A DNA stretch of 64,000 nucleotides from Spartobacteria bacterium (lineage in GTDB: Bacteria; Verrucomicrobiota; Verrucomicrobiia; Chthoniobacterales; UBA10450): the NCBI GenBank assembly GCA_003167555.1, contig PMSN01000012.1, forward strand, positions 62,001-126,000, written 5' to 3'. The notes below the pieces were generated by a model. It saw only the letters and a program-made list of their open reading frames with translations, was not told the origin of the DNA and searched no databases. Positions 2,064 to 10,367 of the stretch are shown in pieces (the first letter of the stretch is position 1; each line of letters opens with the position of its first letter). Made by a program: the position numbers and the translations under genes.

Positions 2064-3257
2064 GTGAGCGGCATCGAAGGCTCGACGGGACCCGAGGCTG
2101 AGTCTCCGGCCTCCGCCGAATTCGACCACGCGGCCCTGGCCTCCTGGTTCCGGCGCGTGCGCAACATTCGTTATCCGCTCACGCTCGCGTTTCTTTCCGC
2201 GGCCATCACCTTCGCCTTCGGTTTCTGCGCTTATCTGGTGATCGAGAACACGATGCCGCCGGAAGGCTGGCTCGATATCTGGAACAGATGGGACGCGGTG
2301 CGTTACATCGAGGTGGCGCAGCTTGGTTATGGCGGAGAAGCCTCGGGGGAACACCGGTTCATGATTGTTTTCCTCCCGCTCTATCCGCTTACCATTTATC
2401 TCGCTCACTTCCTTATCACCAACTGGCACGCGGCTGCGGTTGTCGTCTCCAACCTTTGCTGCGCCGGCGCGTTCACCTATTGCTTTCTGCTAACGGAAAA
2501 GGAATACGGCCGGCGCGCCGCCAAGTTGGCCGTCTTCTACTTCTCCATCTTTCCGACCGCTTACTTTCTGCATGTCGCCTATTCGGAAAGCATCTTTCTT
2601 CTCCTGACGATTGGCGCCTTCTACTACGCGCGGCAGGGGCGCTGGCTCGCCTGCGCTCTCCTTGGCATGCTGGCGACGAGCAGCCGCCTTTCCGGGTTGG
2701 CGATCATGCTGCCACTCGCTTTCGAATACTTTCACCAAAAGCAGCTCCGCTGGCGCGCGATCCGATGGGACTGCGCGTTCCTGGCCCTTATCCCGCTTGG
2801 TTTGGCGGCCTATCTCTATATCAACAACTACTACTTCCAGGATCCGCTAAAGTTCCTTCAGTATCAGCGGGAACATTGGTTTCGCTCCTTCAGCTCACCT
2901 TTTCCAGCCCTCGAATCCAATTTGTATATGGTTACGCACGATCGCGCCAGCGTGGAGCGGGTCATGCAGCATGGGTCGAACCTGGTTGCGTTCGCCTTTG
3001 GGACAACCTTTCTTGTTATCGGGGTTTCCCGGCTTCGGCCTTGTTATACCATCTACCTCGCCCTCAGTTGGGTGCTCACATTTTGCGATAGCTTCACCTT
3101 GTGCTCGCCGCGTTATCTCCTCACCTTCTTTCCCATCTTTATGCTTCTCGGGCACTGGCGCCGGCGGGAATGGCTGCATTACTCCTTTACGTTACTGTTC
3201 CTTCTCTTCTATGCCATGAACGCGACGCAGTTCGTCCGCGGCTGGTGGGCGCATTAG
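2064..3257 (+). CDS. PIG-V-like mannosyltransferase family membrane protein
   Basis: This is a polytopic integral membrane protein of 397 residues with about ten hydrophobic segments. The N-terminal loop contains WDAVRYIEVAQLGY, followed by FLPLYPL and later YSESIFLLLTIGAFYYARQG and an SSRLSGL stretch. These match the pattern of the PIG-V (GPI mannosyltransferase 2) family, GT-C fold enzymes that use a polyprenyl-phosphate sugar donor. Bacterial members have no GPI substrate and probably glycosylate an envelope lipid or polymer; that is inference. The start is GTG at 2064, 45 bp after the cyclase gene, and the next gene begins 3 bp after the stop, suggesting co-transcription with the second GT-C protein. 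Confidence 0.72.
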   Translation: MSGIEGSTGPEAESPASAEFDHAALASWFRRVRNIRYPLTLAFLSAAITFAFGFCAYLVIENTMPPEGWLDIWNRWDAVRYIEVAQLGYGGEASGEHRFMIVFLPLYPLTIYLAHFLITNWHAAAVVVSNLCCAGAFTYCFLLTEKEYGRRAAKLAVFYFSIFPTAYFLHVAYSESIFLLLTIGAFYYARQGRWLACALLGMLATSSRLSGLAIMLPLAFEYFHQKQLRWRAIRWDCAFLALIPLGLAAYLYINNYYFQDPLKFLQYQREHWFRSFSSPFPALESNLYMVTHDRASVERVMQHGSNLVAFAFGTTFLVIGVSRLRPCYTIYLALSWVLTFCDSFTLCSPRYLLTFFPIFMLLGHWRRREWLHYSFTLLFLLFYAMNATQFVRGWWAH

Positions 3258-4844: not shown

Positions 4845-4866
4845 TGTCGGCGCGACGACTCATTCT

Positions 4867-4996
4867 GGGGAGCGCAGGCTGCCAGCCTGCAGTTGCCGGC
4901 AGTTTGCCGGCAACAATCTGCGAACGCACGCATTCCAACCGCGTTACGCATTTCGGCAGGCTGCCGAAATGAACAGGCTGGCAGCCTGCGCTCCCC
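4867..4996. repeat. Palindromic interspersed repeat, family A copy 1 (reverse orientation)
   Basis: A ~130-bp element begins GGGGAGCGCAGGCTGCCAGC and ends with the inverted complement. Two inner palindromes (TTGCCGGC...GCCGGCAA and TTCGGCAGGCTGCCGAA) lie inside. It is the reverse complement arrangement of the copies at 6487 and 10192. It fills most of the gap between the GT-C gene and mpl. Confidence 0.9.
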
Positions 4997-5078
4997 AAAG
5001 AACTCTTCGCCGTCGCGGGAGCGATCAGCGCGCGCCTTTCAGTAGCCAAATGCTCACTCGCATCGTAAAGGAATCCGC

Positions 5079-6479
5079 GTGACAGAAACGCCACGCAATT
5101 TTCATTTCCTCGGTATCTGCGGCACCGCGATGGGAGCAGTCGCGGCGGCGTTGCGCGAGCGCGGCTTCATCGTCACGGGCTCGGACGAAAACGTTTATCC
5201 GCCGATGTCCACCTTTCTCGAGAGCAAAGGCATCGCGCTTTACGAAGGTTACCGCGCGGAAAATATTCCGGCCGATGCCGAGATCATCGTGATCGGCAAC
5301 GCCATGAAACGCGGCAACCCGGAAGTGGAAGCCGTCCTGAACCGGAAGCTTTACTACGCGTCACTGCCGGAAATCCTGAAGCAATTCTTCCTGCGCGGCC
5401 GGCACAATCTCGTCGTCACCGGCACGCACGGGAAAACCACCACGACCGCGCTCCTGGCCTGGATCATGACCTCGGCGAAACTGAATCCGGGTTACGTCAT
5501 CGGCGGCATTCCGAAGAATCTCGGGCAAGGCGCCGCGCTGCACGACTCCAAGTATTTCGTGATCGAAGGCGACGAATACGATTCCGCCTTCTTCGACAAG
5601 CGCTCGAAGTTCGTTCATTACCTGCCGGAATTGGTGATCGTGAACAACATCGAGTTCGATCACGCCGACATCTTCAACAACCTCGACGAGATCAAGCTCA
5701 GTTTCCGCCGGCTCCTCAACATCGTGCCGCAAAACGGCATGGTCCTTTTGAATGGCGACGATCCGAATTGCCTCGACGTCGTCCGGCAATTGCAGCCGCT
5801 GCTCGCCCAGATCGTCGAGATCGGTTTCTCGCCCAATTGCGCGCAGCAGATCCGCGACGTCTCCCTTTCCGCCGCCGGATCGCGCTTCACGCTCGGCGAC
5901 GACAAGTTCGAGCTGCCGCTCCACGGCGAATTCAACGTGCGCAATGCGGCCATGGCGATTTCAGCCGCGCGTTTCTACGGCGTCTCGCTGCCGAAGATCC
6001 GGAAAGCGCTCGCCAGTTTCAAAGGGATCGCGCGGCGGCAGGAAGTGCGGGGCGAAGCGCGCGGCGTGAAAGTGATCGACGATTTCGGGCATCATCCCAC
6101 CGCGATTCGCGAGACGATGCGCGCGCTGCGGCAGCGTTACGCGGGCAGCCGCATCTGGGCGATCTTCGAGCCGCGCTCGAACACGACCCGGCGCGCAATT
6201 TTTCAACAGGAGCTGCCCGACGCGCTCAAGCTGGCGGACGGTGTCTTTATTTCGCAAGTCGCGCGGCTCGATCAGATCCCGGAGAAGGAGCGATTGAATC
6301 CCGAGGCCGTGGTAGCCGCGATCGCGGAGTCAGGCCGGCCCGCGTTTTACGAACCCGACGCCGCGCATATTATCGCGCGTCTCGTTCCGCTGTTGAAGGC
6401 GGGCGACGTGGTCGCGGTTTTCAGCAACGGCGGTTTCGATGGGATCCATGAGAAGTTGTTGGGGAAGTTGAGAGGTTGA
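5079..6479 (+). CDS. mpl: UDP-N-acetylmuramate:L-alanyl-gamma-D-glutamyl-meso-diaminopimelate ligase
   Basis: This Mur-ligase family enzyme reattaches the recycled murein tripeptide to UDP-MurNAc in the cytosol. The 466-residue length is normal for Mpl. Visible motifs are the N-terminal Rossmann segment HFLGICGTAMG, the ATP loop GTHGKTTTTALL, the EGDEYDSAFFDKRSK signature characteristic of Mpl rather than MurC, the FGHHPTAI segment and the C-terminal NGGFDGIHEKLL. The start is GTG at 5079 with an AAAGGA site at 5067-5072. The gene stands alone between two copies of repeat family A. Its presence implies a meso-diaminopimelate peptidoglycan with recycling. Confidence 0.96.
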   Translation: MTETPRNFHFLGICGTAMGAVAAALRERGFIVTGSDENVYPPMSTFLESKGIALYEGYRAENIPADAEIIVIGNAMKRGNPEVEAVLNRKLYYASLPEILKQFFLRGRHNLVVTGTHGKTTTTALLAWIMTSAKLNPGYVIGGIPKNLGQGAALHDSKYFVIEGDEYDSAFFDKRSKFVHYLPELVIVNNIEFDHADIFNNLDEIKLSFRRLLNIVPQNGMVLLNGDDPNCLDVVRQLQPLLAQIVEIGFSPNCAQQIRDVSLSAAGSRFTLGDDKFELPLHGEFNVRNAAMAISAARFYGVSLPKIRKALASFKGIARRQEVRGEARGVKVIDDFGHHPTAIRETMRALRQRYAGSRIWAIFEPRSNTTRRAIFQQELPDALKLADGVFISQVARLDQIPEKERLNPEAVVAAIAESGRPAFYEPDAAHIIARLVPLLKAGDVVAVFSNGGFDGIHEKLLGKLRG

Positions 6480-6486
6480 GAGGCCT

Positions 6487-6617
6487 GGGGAGCACAGGCT
6501 GCCAGCCTGTTCATCTCGGCAGCCTGCCGAGATGCGGTGCGCGATTTGATTTCGATGCGTGAGCAGAATGTTGCCGGCAGGCTGCCGGCAACTGCAGGCT
6601 GGCAGCCTGCGCTCCCC
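6487..6617. repeat. Palindromic interspersed repeat, family A copy 2
   Basis: Same element as at 10192-10327 and in the same orientation: outer arms GGGGAGC(A/G)CAGGCTGCCAGC and its complement, inner palindromes CATCTCGGCAGCCTGCCGAGATG (split here for length) and TTGCCGGCAGGCTGCCGGCA. It lies between convergent mpl and the NTF2-like gene and could act as a bidirectional transcription stop. Confidence 0.9.
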
Positions 6618-6640
6618 AAGCGGACGCCCGCGCGCTCCGC

Positions 6641-7105
6641 CTACGACGTGTGATCGTGCACGATGCGCCAGCCGGCTGCCGTGCGGCGGAAGAGGAGCGT
6701 GAAACGTCCCTGTGGTTTGTCAGTTTTGCGGACCAGCTTCCAACGTCCGATGACGAGCGCGGCGTCGCGGCTGAGTGGCGTGATCTTTAGCTCGGAGAAA
6801 GTGAGCGTGCCCATCTTCTCGCGGCTGTCGTATTTCTTCTTGTAACGATCGCGCACCGTTTGCCAGCCGCGGGTGAGTTTGTCGCCCGAAACAAACTCCG
6901 TCGTCTCCGCGCGGGCGTAACCATTCATGAACCCATCGATATCGCCCCGGTTCCAAGCCAAAACCTGCGCCGCCATGACCGCCCGGATTTCCGCTGCGTC
7001 TTTGGATTCCGCCGCCGAAATGCTTCCCGCAGTGAACTCGATAATTAGAACTGCTGCCAGAGCAATCGCCGAACGAAGTATGGCGCGTGATATCAGGTTC
7101 TTCAT
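6641..7105 (-). CDS. Secreted NTF2-like (SnoaL/DUF4440 type) protein
   Basis: The longer open frame upstream is repeat-derived; the real start is the ATG at 7105, which gives a 154-residue protein with a clear signal peptide (MKNLISRAILRSAIALAAVL, then an Ala-rich cleavage region SISAAES). The mature part has the alpha+beta cone pattern of NTF2-like proteins: AEIRAVMAAQVLAWNRGDID helix split by a turn, DKLTRGWQTVRDRY, and the final strands GRFTLLFRRTAAGW RIVHDHTS. Such proteins bind or turn over small molecules; no catalytic residues are obvious, so function is unknown. It is convergent with mpl and divergent from the secretin gene. Confidence 0.75.
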   Translation of the reverse strand: MKNLISRAILRSAIALAAVLIIEFTAGSISAAESKDAAEIRAVMAAQVLAWNRGDIDGFMNGYARAETTEFVSGDKLTRGWQTVRDRYKKKYDSREKMGTLTFSELKITPLSRDAALVIGRWKLVRKTDKPQGRFTLLFRRTAAGWRIVHDHTS

Positions 7106-7141
7106 TGGACGTTGGATGTTGAGCGTTGGACGTTGGACGTT
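7106..7141. repeat. Short tandem heptamer-like repeat GTTGGA(C/T)
   Basis: Four imperfect copies of a GTTGGAC/GTTGGATG unit lie directly upstream of the NTF2-like start codon. A related fragment (GACGTTGGAAGT) sits upstream of mtnA at 24530-24541. They fall in the divergent promoter region, but no regulatory role can be shown. Confidence 0.5.
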
Positions 7142-7193
7142 CTGCCTTTTAAAGGCACCGCTACTCATTGCGCGATCAAAATCCCTAAGACTA

Positions 7194-7240
7194 TGTCCGG
7201 CAAGCTGCCGGACACTGCAGGCTGGCAGCCTGCGCTCCCC
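7194..7240. repeat. Half copy of palindromic repeat family A
   Basis: Only the right-hand half of the element is present: the inner TGTCCGGCAAGCTGCCGGACA palindrome (21 bp; first and last bases are the arm ends) and the outer GCAGGCTGGCAGCC...CTCCCC arm. It ends 57 bp before the secretin start. Confidence 0.8.
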
Positions 7241-7297
7241 TTGGCGGCTCCCCCTTATAGTGTTGACCCGGCCGCCCCGACCTATTACATAAAGCGC

Positions 7298-9724
7298 GTG
7301 CTTCGTCCCTCTTGTCTTGTGGCGCTGTGTCTCGCGGCGTTGACGCCGGCTTTTGGCCAGGTCCGGCCCATCTCCAAATCGCCCAAGGTCGAGATCCATC
7401 CGCCGACGAATTCGAACACCAATTCAAATCGCGAAGTCGCCCAGGTGAACCCTGAGCAACCCGCGCCGGAGGAATCCCGTCCGCCCGCGCCCGCGCCCAT
7501 GACCACGCCTTTTTCCAAAGGCCCTGGCACGCCGGACTCGACCGTGGTCCTCCAATATCCGAATAGCGACGTCGCTGACGTGCTCCATCTTTACGAGACG
7601 CTCACCGGCAAGAAGCTCGTCATGGATAATTTCGTGCAGGGCAAGGTCAACATCTTCATCAGCAAACCGGTCCCGCGCGACGAAGCCATCCGCATCATCG
7701 AGATCAACCTCCTCATGAACGGCTACTCACTCGTCCCCGCGGAAGGCGACATCGTCAAAGTCATCGGCACCGGGAGAAATCCGCGCGGCACCGGCGTCCC
7801 GATCATTTCCGACGAAGCCGACATCCCGGCCGGCGACCACGTCGTCAGTTTCCTTTTCAAACTGCGATACGCCGACCCGGTCGAGCTGCAGCAGGTGCTC
7901 GGGCAGTATCTTTCGCCGCCGGCGACCTACACCTCGTTTCTGGCGCTGCCGAAAGCGTCCGCCATTCTCGTCACGGAAAATTCCAGCGTGATCCGCACCC
8001 TCGCCCACATCATCGAGCAGGTGGACATCCCGCCCGCGGAAGTGGTGAGCGAGTTCATCAAGCTCACCCGGGCCGATGCGACCAAGGTGGTCGACATGCT
8101 GAAGGACGTCTTTGAAAAAGGAAATCAGCCCGCGCAACCGGGGGTGAACACGGCGGCCGGTGTGCGGCCCGTGCGGCCGGCGGCGCCCATCACCCCGCCC
8201 CAGCTCACTGCCGAAGGCGTCGATATCGGCGCGCTCTATGCGCTGACGGAGGATTCGATCGTGGTGGGCAAGATCAAGATTTCCGCGGACGTGCGGACGA
8301 ACCGGATCCACGTCATCACGCGGCCGATCAACATGCCCTTCATCCGCAAATTGATCTCCGAGTTCGATGCGAACGTGGAGTTCGCCAAGCCGGTCACGCG
8401 TCCGTTGCGTTACATTTCGGCGGCGGAGGTGTTGCCGGTGATCGTGCAGGCACTGACCGAACCGGGAGGAACCAATCAGCCGGGAGCTGAGACCACAGGC
8501 ACGAATCCGAACGCGCAACAGCAGCAGCAGCAGCGCCGAACCACGTCCACCAACACGAGCACGAGTGGAATGGATTCCAGCTCCAGTAGCGGCAGTCAGA
8601 GTTTCTCCGAGGAGCTTTCCACGCAAGCGGTCGATACGACTCCGAAAGCTGTCACGGTGGGCAATGCGAAGATCATCGCGGATCAACGAGCGAATGCGAT
8701 CATCGTTCTGGGTAATCGTGAAGTCGTGGTGAAAGTCGGGAAAATCTTGGACGAGATGGACGTAAAGGCGCCGCAAGTGGCGCTTAGCACTGTTATCGGC
8801 GAGCTCACTTTGAACAATGAGAAGGATCTCGGGATCGATTACTTTGCTCGAAATGCCAACCGCGTGGCCGGCACGACGAACTCCACTGGAATAGTTCCGG
8901 CTACCGGCGGCGCCAACGGCGTGCCGAGCGTTTTTAACCCTGGCAATATCGTGACGTTCACCCAACTGGCGACCGCCGCCGCTGCGGGCACGAATGTCTA
9001 TCTTGCCGCCGGCAACAGCCTCGCCGCCGTCGTGCATATGCTTGATTCGACCGGGCGCTTCAAGGTGCTCAATCGTCCGGTCGTTTTCACAAGCAACAAT
9101 AAGAAAGCAATTATCGCTTCAGGTCAGGAAATACCGGTTCCGGTAAATACCTTATCATCGTTCATTCCTACTTCTACGGTGAGTTCCACGCCTATCAACA
9201 ATTTTGGCACTCAATCGAGCATCCAATATAAGAAGGTCGCGCTACAACTCGAAGTAGTCCCGCTGATTAACTCCGAAAAGGAGGTATCGCTCGATATCCT
9301 GCAGAAACTCGACAGCCTCGGCACTCCCGCAATAGTCGATGGCAATTCGATCCCGACGATCGTGACACGCTATATCAAGACGACTGTTTCGGCCCCGAAT
9401 GGCTCGACAATTGTTCTTGGCGGATTGATCACGGACAACAAGCAAGTAAGCAAGACCGGTATCCCAATTCTCAGTCAGATCCCGGTGGTCGGCGCCCTTT
9501 TTAGAAATACGATCAGGAAGAACGATCGCACCGAGCTCATCGTTCTAATGCGTCCCGAGGTGGCTCTCACGAAACTCGATATCTATCGTCTCCGCCTGAA
9601 GATCGAAGGCAAAACGCATCTCGGCCCGGAACTCGACTCAGATGATTGCCCTGAGTGCCCGAAGCCGACCGAGGGCAAAGAACTGCAACTGCCCGCGCCC
9701 GATCTCCCCGTGGGAAGTAACTGA
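7298..9724 (+). CDS. gspD: Type II secretion system secretin (GspD family)
   Basis: Outer membrane secretin forming the exit channel of a type II secretion or related system. I place the start at GTG 7298 because the encoded MLRPSCLVALCLAALTPAFG is a signal peptide, while the upstream open frame is repeat sequence. A Pro-rich linker follows, then N0/N1-N3 domains (LQYPNSDVADVLHLYETLTG, LRYADPVELQQVLGQYLSPP, FIKLTRADATKVVDMLKDVF), a Gln/Ser/Thr-rich insert about residues 395-445, another N-type repeat and the C-terminal secretin core (VALQLEVVPLINSEKEV, VLGGLITDNKQVSKTGIPIL, LFRNTIRKNDRTELIVLMRP). At about 808 residues it is longer than E. coli GspD. No other gsp genes are in the window. Confidence 0.9.
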   Translation: MLRPSCLVALCLAALTPAFGQVRPISKSPKVEIHPPTNSNTNSNREVAQVNPEQPAPEESRPPAPAPMTTPFSKGPGTPDSTVVLQYPNSDVADVLHLYETLTGKKLVMDNFVQGKVNIFISKPVPRDEAIRIIEINLLMNGYSLVPAEGDIVKVIGTGRNPRGTGVPIISDEADIPAGDHVVSFLFKLRYADPVELQQVLGQYLSPPATYTSFLALPKASAILVTENSSVIRTLAHIIEQVDIPPAEVVSEFIKLTRADATKVVDMLKDVFEKGNQPAQPGVNTAAGVRPVRPAAPITPPQLTAEGVDIGALYALTEDSIVVGKIKISADVRTNRIHVITRPINMPFIRKLISEFDANVEFAKPVTRPLRYISAAEVLPVIVQALTEPGGTNQPGAETTGTNPNAQQQQQQRRTTSTNTSTSGMDSSSSSGSQSFSEELSTQAVDTTPKAVTVGNAKIIADQRANAIIVLGNREVVVKVGKILDEMDVKAPQVALSTVIGELTLNNEKDLGIDYFARNANRVAGTTNSTGIVPATGGANGVPSVFNPGNIVTFTQLATAAAAGTNVYLAAGNSLAAVVHMLDSTGRFKVLNRPVVFTSNNKKAIIASGQEIPVPVNTLSSFIPTSTVSSTPINNFGTQSSIQYKKVALQLEVVPLINSEKEVSLDILQKLDSLGTPAIVDGNSIPTIVTRYIKTTVSAPNGSTIVLGGLITDNKQVSKTGIPILSQIPVVGALFRNTIRKNDRTELIVLMRPEVALTKLDIYRLRLKIEGKTHLGPELDSDDCPECPKPTEGKELQLPAPDLPVGSN

Positions 9725-9732
9725 CGGGGCGC

Positions 9733-9892
9733 TGTCATCCCGAGCCGCGCTAGACGGCGAGGGACCTCGCAACTGCAATGCGGATCAGCTTGCGCCCTCC
9801 AACGCCGAAGACACGATCGGTGAGATGTATCGCGGAAGCACGCGTGTGAGCTTGTGTGAGGTCCCTCGCCGTCTGCGCGGCTCGGGATGACA
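9733..9892. repeat. Inverted repeat, family B copy 1 (TGTCATCCCGAGC type)
   Basis: Two near-complementary arms of about 36 bp (TGTCATCCCGAGCCGCGC... at 9733 and ...GCGCGGCTCGGGATGACA ending 9892) enclose about 90 bp of unrelated sequence. Related copies lie at 55621, 56789 and 57695. It follows the secretin stop and may act as a terminator or RNA-stabilising hairpin. Confidence 0.85.
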
Positions 9893-9986
9893 GGTTGCGC
9901 GCGCCGACGCCACAATTCAACCATTCCCGTCTTACCCGCTCGCCGCTTCTCCTGCGAATAAATGGTGAAAGGGAGGAAAAAAGGGC

Positions 9987-10103
9987 ATGAAACTGAAAGA
10001 GCAAATCAAGGAAACGGGAGTTGCGGGGTACATTTTGTTGTGGCTTCTGGGGATTCCTGTTCCGGTTCTACTTTTGTTTTTTCTGCTGCGCGGTTGCACA
10101 TAG
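9987..10103 (+). CDS. 38-residue single-pass membrane peptide
   Basis: A short open frame (ATG 9987, TAG 10101-10103) is preceded by a strong GGGAGG site at 9971-9976. The peptide begins with a charged amphipathic stretch (MKLKEQIKETGVAGY) followed by a membrane segment (ILLWLLGIPVPVLLLFFLLR) and ends Gly-Cys-Thr. The charge distribution, ribosome site and a T-rich stretch unlike the surrounding GC-rich DNA support it as a real small gene. I do not recognise a named family with certainty. It sits alone between two repeat elements, downstream of the secretin. Confidence 0.6.
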   Translation: MKLKEQIKETGVAGYILLWLLGIPVPVLLLFFLLRGCT

Positions 10104-10191
10104 AAGGTTAGGGGCGCAAGCAGGAGACCAGCCTGGCAGGAAATCGGTCGAGCAGGCCGTCGTTTCCAGCCAGGCTTTCTGTTGGACTTCC

Positions 10192-10327
10192 GGGGAGCGC
10201 AGGCTGCCAGCCTGCCCATCTCGGCAGCCTGCCGAGATGCATCGCGTGATCTGGAGTGAGCGCGATGCGGGACCAGAATGTTGCCGGCAAGCTGCCGGCA
10301 ACTGCAGGCTGGCAGCCTGCGCTCCCC
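10192..10327. repeat. Palindromic interspersed repeat, family A copy 3
   Basis: A 136-bp element with the same architecture as 6487-6617. The flanks carry a GGACTT direct repeat (10184-10189 and 10329-10334), which could be a target-site duplication left by insertion. The insert lies immediately upstream of the threonine aldolase gene. Confidence 0.9.
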
Positions 10328-10367
10328 AGGACTTGCTCGCCGCGGCGAATTCGCCTACCAACATTCA

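Follow-up and report, generated by a model that had tools for sequence, protein, structure and literature searches.

Three full copies and a half copy of a palindromic element of about 130 bp lie within 5.5 kb of a 64,000-nucleotide stretch of DNA from a Spartobacteria bacterium (assembly GCA_003167555.1, contig PMSN01000012.1, positions 62,001 to 126,000 of the forward strand; the whole stretch is hereafter the window), which raises the question of what these elements are and what moves them. A preliminary description made from the sequence of the window had compared them with repetitive extragenic palindromes (REPs) and bacterial interspersed mosaic elements (BIMEs) or with miniature inverted-repeat transposable elements (MITEs), and had suggested mobility by a transposase encoded elsewhere. 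The palindromes are REP doublets forming hairpins (REPINs), two inverted REP arms around a short spacer, and as such further members of an already known kind. We propose that they are, quite probably, mobilised by a REP-associated tyrosine transposase (RAYT) that sits in frame in recG and would be translated as an inserted domain of RecG.

All four copies were found where they had been placed before. Copy 1 (4867..4996, reverse strand) has two inverted arms, GGGGAGC...GCTCCCC, with conserved edges reaching to about 4864-4999, and is indeed the reverse complement of the arrangement seen in copies 2 and 3 (inverted pairs 86-96% complementary). Copy 2 (6487..6617, forward strand) lies directly 3' of the open reading frame (ORF) at 5079-6479, the half copy (7194..7240, forward strand) is one REP arm with hairpins of 9 bp and 7 bp followed by GCTCCCC, and copy 3 (10192..10327, forward strand) stands between a hairpin-like stretch and an ORF with its likely start at ATG 10368. 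Each arm consists of GGGGAGC, a 7-bp hairpin (GCAGGCT/AGCCTGC) and a second hairpin of 8-10 bp, and in the full copies the two arms face each other. The REP core CAGGCTGSCAGCCTG occurs seven times in the window at up to two mismatches, against 0.09 expected, and none of 100 shuffles reached that number. Folded as single-stranded DNA the three full copies gave z-scores of -11.25, -9.55 and -11.94, with none of 200 shuffles folding as well. Rfam at gathering thresholds reported nothing at the repeats and one tRNA in the window.

Across the source genome (4.2 Mb, 29 contigs) the core at up to three mismatches gave 73 matches against none for a reversed control pattern. Rescoring of the fetched loci raised this to 75 matches, which made up 40 elements after four matches overlapping a REP on the opposite strand had been dropped; more diverged copies outside the fetched loci fall outside this count. 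Counting copies genome-wide, a check proposed in the preliminary description, thus yields 30 pairs of 100-160 bp, nine singles and one long copy with a RAYT. All 30 pairs have their GGGG ends pointing outward, the orientation required by the pairing rule, and the edge consensus of the elements is TTCT/GGGG...CCCC/AGAA, the slashes marking the edges. The tag is GGGGAGC with CT in front; it matches neither the GTAG tag of the GTAG REP superfamily nor the TIRtron motif GGGGWSAS, from which the tag here, GGGGAGCG, is one base off. The CT before GGGGAG resembles the CT at which TnpAREP of E. coli is described to cleave (PMC8266576), and may by analogy serve as cleavage site here.

The long copy points to the enzyme. 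Its arms at C1:3700 and C1:4291 differ from the dispersed REP by one and zero mismatches, and the RAYT that they bound (contig C1:3700-4314) lies outside the window. Pfam gave five Y1 matches in the source genome and only one of them (C1:3762-4259) is enclosed by two arms; it is probably this RAYT that answers to the transposase which had been supposed to be encoded elsewhere and for which a search among RAYT-type or other transposases had been advised. The other Y1 genes were considered as mobilisers and rejected, no REP at up to three mismatches being listed beside them; the one on C18 has IS200 as its best match, and those on C23 and C19 (two) are RAYT-like and free-standing. In the source RAYT both HUH histidines and the tyrosine are present. 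The modelled fold of its clade has as best PDB match 4er8 (E 6.5e-6, template modelling score 0.63), the structure of TnpAREP bound to a REP hairpin, and a profile match to 4er8 was also obtained (E 9.4e-6); for this the RAYT was folded and searched by itself, since the VIA-align matches of the whole fusion fell mostly on the helicase part. Another of the rejected Y1 genes, free-standing on contig C1 (L036 64-1041), encodes a transposase that ends in a DnaA C-terminal domain; with inverted ends near GGGGTCGTGTCTAAACATTTGACAT (by eye), it resembles the TIRYT or subclass 2.1 type.

GGACTT direct repeats do flank copy 3 (10184..10189 and 10329..10334, both forward strand), as had been noted, and had been taken for a possible target-site duplication. 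Among 31 elements, comprising the RAYT copy as well as the 30 pairs, the edges show no more direct repeats than shuffled flanks do: the mean best match at the ends is 1.48 against 1.33 in shuffles (p = 0.19), and repeats of at least 5 nt occur at one of the 31 elements where 0.49 are expected (p = 0.38), so that we judge the GGACTT pair to be a chance match. A MITE, moved by cut-and-paste by a DDE transposase with a 6-bp target duplication, would account for the inverted termini and for this one flanking repeat, but the missing excess of duplications argues against it, and so does the nature of the gene between the arms, a Y1/HUH transposase. Transposases of this type are not known to duplicate their target on insertion. 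We therefore consider the MITE interpretation extremely improbable; since the long copy carries a RAYT gene in the place of the spacer, the palindromes are REPINs and not MITEs of the DDE type.

Signs of mobility came from relatives. At the site of copy 3 no REP (up to six mismatches) was found in seven of seven genus relatives, and copy 2 is absent 3' of its left flanking gene in the same number, as judged from adjacent flanking genes in five and, in two, from the stretch that separates the left gene from the conserved gene following it. The half copy is absent in the four relatives that retain both flanks; for the gene upstream of copy 1 there was no match in genus relatives among the matches listed. 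The preliminary description had held that copies always at syntenic sites would speak against mobility; instead copies 2, 3 and the half copy are missing from their sites in the relatives compared. Its REP/BIME-like reading was right. If the palindromes were static regulatory or terminator elements inherited in place, their strong folding and the position of copy 2 just 3' of a gene would find an easy explanation, but the sites would not be empty in the relatives checked, nor would the number of REPs vary from 0 to 108 among species within a single genus, and we regard this as very unlikely. REP abundance also follows the presence of a cognate RAYT: the median is 34 sites in the 12 family genomes that have one and 1 in the 68 that do not (p = 5.5e-7, a test that ignores relatedness).

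The RAYT and its two arms belong to one open frame of 929 codons, in the order RecG, REP arm, RAYT, REP arm, RecG. The frame scores 685.8 bits for RecG (cut-off 659.4) in two stretches with the RAYT between them. The idea of a transposase encoded elsewhere is probably right, while the in-frame embedding of its gene in recG had been missed because it lies outside the window. The insertion falls in a loop of RecG of variable length, between APTQILAEQH and GTHALL. Across 39 genomes including the source, RecG is filled in 12, uninterrupted in 23 and partial or undetected in 4. Filled RecGs are interrupted at the same place, the profile match stopping at 322-326 and restarting at 323-340; for one genome (G001) only the first RecG half is seen and the contig ends in the RAYT. 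A second intact recG is not among the genes listed for the filled genomes, and second RecG-like matches of ~1060-1160 aa are presumably Mfd. In a structural model of the fusion from a relative (901 aa) the RAYT core has a predicted local distance difference test (pLDDT) score near 80 and the arms score below 50, mostly below 40, and the RecG fold matches 1gm5 with Z 25.1 and a root-mean-square deviation of 9.9 over 585 residues.

RecG is one host among several. The 213 genomes of the order comprise 64 with altogether 89 close RAYT places, with no stops within the match, and 79 of the 89 records are in frame in host genes: RecG 42, MetH 10 and 5 (two sites), AlaS 14, CarB 3, ThrS 3, PriA 1 and a methyltransferase 1. 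Host families were confirmed by profile on representatives; the methyltransferase (L182) was named by eye, the family scan naming only the RAYT. The record set is without L152, a filled RecG whose RAYT is identical to that of L151, and has the frameshifted L190 twice among the 10 non-embedded records, so that counted by place 80 of 89 are embedded. L190 itself is a free-standing RAYT that the frameshift splits in two, and a gene that by eye resembles PilB/GspE follows directly downstream. Two RAYTs share one host frame in L240 (MetH, both sites) and in L248 and L300 (AlaS). Among named genomes in GTDB 78 of 83 matches are embedded (31 in RecG, 31 in AlaS; 67 with long frame on both sides), as counted on the best 80 of 182 loci and with 45 of the 83 overlapping the record set of the order; they include one metagenome-assembled genome (MAG) each of Methylacidiphilum and of the Opitutaceae, as well as the genome of the cultured verrucomicrobium Ereboglobus sp. 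PH5-10, whose AlaS is split over two contigs with the RAYT next to its C-terminal part. In 16 genomes the RAYT interrupts AlaS; the two halves share a frame in 12 of them and are on different contigs in 4, and no uninterrupted second AlaS is listed for these 16. AlaS and ThrS are essential enzymes.

Of 387 genomes sampled evenly across the phylum, eight have a close match, the source included, and all eight matches are in frames of at least 730 aa. Weaker RAYT matches are in frames above 500 aa in 14 of 103 cases, and so are 14 of 150 NF047646 matches among those listed, at least three of these 14 belonging to the embedded clade. RAYTs in general are thus mostly free-standing. As a side observation, a distant RAYT lineage (L080, L082, L084, L081, L077, L079) is also found in long open frames, with hosts that by eye are apparently CarB, ValS, a Sua5-like protein and a methyltransferase.

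How the embedded transposase would be made can be judged from several features. Across the set the first HUH histidine is retained in 85 of 88 RAYTs, the second in 88 of 88 and the tyrosine in 83 of 87. The median ratio of non-synonymous to synonymous differences (pN/pS) is 0.218 in the RAYT against 0.299 and 0.199 in the RecG flanks (55 pairs among 11 of the 12 sequences in the clade of the source RAYT), so the RAYT is under purifying selection with its catalytic residues mostly kept. Of the 79 embedded records 72 entered a test for start codons, and just 4 of these RAYTs have an ATG among the 20 codons that precede the conserved LPH motif. Together with the fusion model, these residues, the pN/pS values and the rarity of ATG favour translation as an inserted domain of the host protein, which we consider most likely.

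Alternatively, the host protein might function only after the RAYT segment has been taken out, through protein splicing, excision from the mRNA or bypassing of an arm hairpin by the ribosome, so that the segment would resemble an intein or intron. The two arms of a short element can form a long hairpin in DNA, as the arms of the long copy might in a transcript, the arms are modelled as disordered, and the insertions are in needed enzymes (AlaS, ThrS, RecG), all of which would suit such removal. It would be unnecessary since the host loops vary in length and hold unrelated inserts or arm-like remnants in other genomes. Moreover 67 of the 79 embedded records keep the frame through the arms and the RAYT and have 100 or more residues of open frame on either side, which removal at the RNA level would not require, and most of the remaining 12 are cut by contig ends. 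We consider removal of the segment unlikely. Somewhat less doubtful, though still improbable, is that the RAYT has been recruited as a working part of its host, for example as a hairpin nuclease brought to stalled forks with RecG or PriA, and persists for the host's benefit. In favour of this, RecG hosts more of the RAYTs in the order than any other protein (42 of 89 records), PriA occurs once, and the RAYT is under purifying selection; but AlaS, MetH, CarB and ThrS carry the same domain without being fork proteins, and closely related RecGs have quite different RAYTs or none.

This last point extends to the history of the sites. The RAYT tree (84 rows, five short ones left out) is clustered by host site without matching it one to one, with 17 host changes against 39.5 after shuffling, and its starred branches require three or more host changes apiece for RecG, for AlaS and for site a of MetH. 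RecG N-side segments that are 93% identical hold, in the same loop, RAYTs that are 56% identical, and 41 pairs combine RecG identity above 80% with RAYT identity below 60%; the same loops are used by different RAYT lineages. RecGs lacking a RAYT exist within the same genus, and some RAYT-less loops contain arm-like remnants by eye (G014 and G018, for example). In metH of the source genome a REPIN without a RAYT lies in frame, flanked to the left and right by convincing gene sequence; in relatives a RAYT occupies this site. The AlaS of the source (L314 about 2809-3018) has an insert of ~70 residues that is not REPIN-like at the loop holding a RAYT in relatives, so it seems that host loops accept foreign segments. 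At another position this AlaS also has a palindrome-like proline-rich insert.

The in-frame bias of the dispersed REPINs is weak, with 3.57 of six frames open against 2.97 in Markov resamples, and REPIN length modulo 3 shows no bias (9, 13 and 8 of 30). Open frames were flagged through eight elements including the RAYT copy, and six of them were read out. Apart from the metH case, a murF-like candidate (so named by eye) was rejected as it lies upstream of the start, and four other flagged frames appear to be due to chance. One further element flagged with an open frame, C7:69217, is antisense to a gene.

Several observations count against an in-frame, RAYT-driven system and have to be weighed. 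The source RAYT scores 79.4 bits for NF047646 (REP_Tyr_transpos) with a cut-off of 80 (E 2.3e-22); among the fusions of eight relatives L132 (82.2) and L240 (125.5, with two RAYT stretches) are above it and six are at 67.2-79.1. The overall confidence of the fusion model is low (pLDDT 66, predicted template modelling score 0.55). The tyrosine is lost in 4 of 87 RAYTs and the first histidine in 3 of 88, and these RAYTs may therefore be decaying. If GTG and TTG are allowed besides ATG, 30 of 72 embedded RAYTs have such a codon within 20 codons upstream of LPH, which leaves room for a separate RAYT start. One side of the frame runs off the contig in 10 of 79 embedded records, and the frames of L146 and L191 end 21 and 6 residues past the matched part, so that in the present assemblies these do not form intact fusions. 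The genomes are almost all MAGs. Many REPs are present in some genomes without a cognate RAYT (G142 37, G141 37, G143 32), and most dispersed REPINs of the source genome are outside genes, with one clear intragenic case in 40 elements.

With these points in mind, our interpretation of the recG locus is the following. The REPINs would be non-autonomous elements moved as single-stranded DNA by the RAYT, a Y1/HUH enzyme of the TnpAREP class. In the predicted fusion the N-terminal part of RecG would be followed by a REP arm as flexible linker, the RAYT, the second arm as linker and the C-terminal part of RecG. The helicase presumably still works with its insert, given that the insertion is in a loop of variable length. 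The host gene would supply promoter and start codon to the transposase, and the RAYT would be hard to lose because only an in-frame deletion would be tolerated in a needed gene, a possible selfish advantage. Going further, and here we find the case evenly balanced, this may be a phylum-wide class of transposable elements that persists by translational camouflage in tolerant loops of RecG, AlaS, MetH, ThrS, CarB and PriA, its REP ends serving as linkers and its enzyme being expressed only with the host enzyme, while the same loops are re-invaded in a homing-like manner and REPINs spread from there.

RAYTs are described to occur in single copy and to have been passed on over millions of years (PMC8049555), and an in-frame seat within a needed gene would be a simple answer to how they escape loss. 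If our interpretation is correct, many RecG, AlaS and MetH proteins of Verrucomicrobiota carry an HUH endonuclease domain of ~160 residues. Length filters can drop such proteins as fusions or annotation errors; indeed a survey of the TnpAREP family discarded unexpectedly long proteins on these grounds (PMC6006769). The insertions also indicate natural loops that may accommodate an entire enzyme while the host protein is preserved.

Two further repeats in the window are unrelated to this question. A second, unrelated palindromic repeat of ~160 bp (GTCATCCCGAGCC...GGCTCGGGATGACA) at 9737-9892 has more copies in the source genome and in relatives, and a short tandem of TTGGACGTTGGA-type units is located at 7105-7146, near the half copy.

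Inteins, which reside in frame in essential genes and whose sites are reused by different lineages, are a parallel in lifestyle, but here the passenger is an HUH transposase and not a homing endonuclease, and the insertions are in loops of variable length. The system shares with described REPIN/RAYT systems two inverted REPs as the mobile unit, a Y1 gene tied to REPs and cognate REP families (PMC3116915, PMC2817692); in the present case the transposase gene does not stand free but is in frame in a housekeeping gene, with its arms in the open frame. REPtrons and TIRtrons likewise have GGGG-tagged double-palindromic arms around a tyrosine transposase, and the available part of their description includes terminal inverted repeats (TIRs) with GGGGWSAS, double palindromic TIRs and intragenic REPs in repair genes, among others of the verrucomicrobium Opitutus terrae (PMC3733652). 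What is within genes in that text is the REP, and here it is the transposase gene. The TnpAREP subclasses 2.x have the same Y---NP tyrosine motif and the HuH motif, and five TnpAREP subclasses are REP-flanked, while the motifs found here (DHVH / WE / YITRNP) by eye match no row of the accessible table exactly (PMC6006769). Palindromic repeats in frame in protein genes are also known as Rickettsia palindromic elements (RPEs), which are assigned to CGTC repeats, a group with which the available text associates no transposase genes (PMC3733652); here the transposase-bearing copy itself is in frame. Our literature search, made on open-access papers with subscription papers mostly outside it, found no description of a RAYT or Y1 transposase embedded in housekeeping genes, recG and alaS among them. 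REPINs and RAYTs themselves are already well described, and what is new here is the lifestyle of the transposase, which resides in frame inside housekeeping genes.

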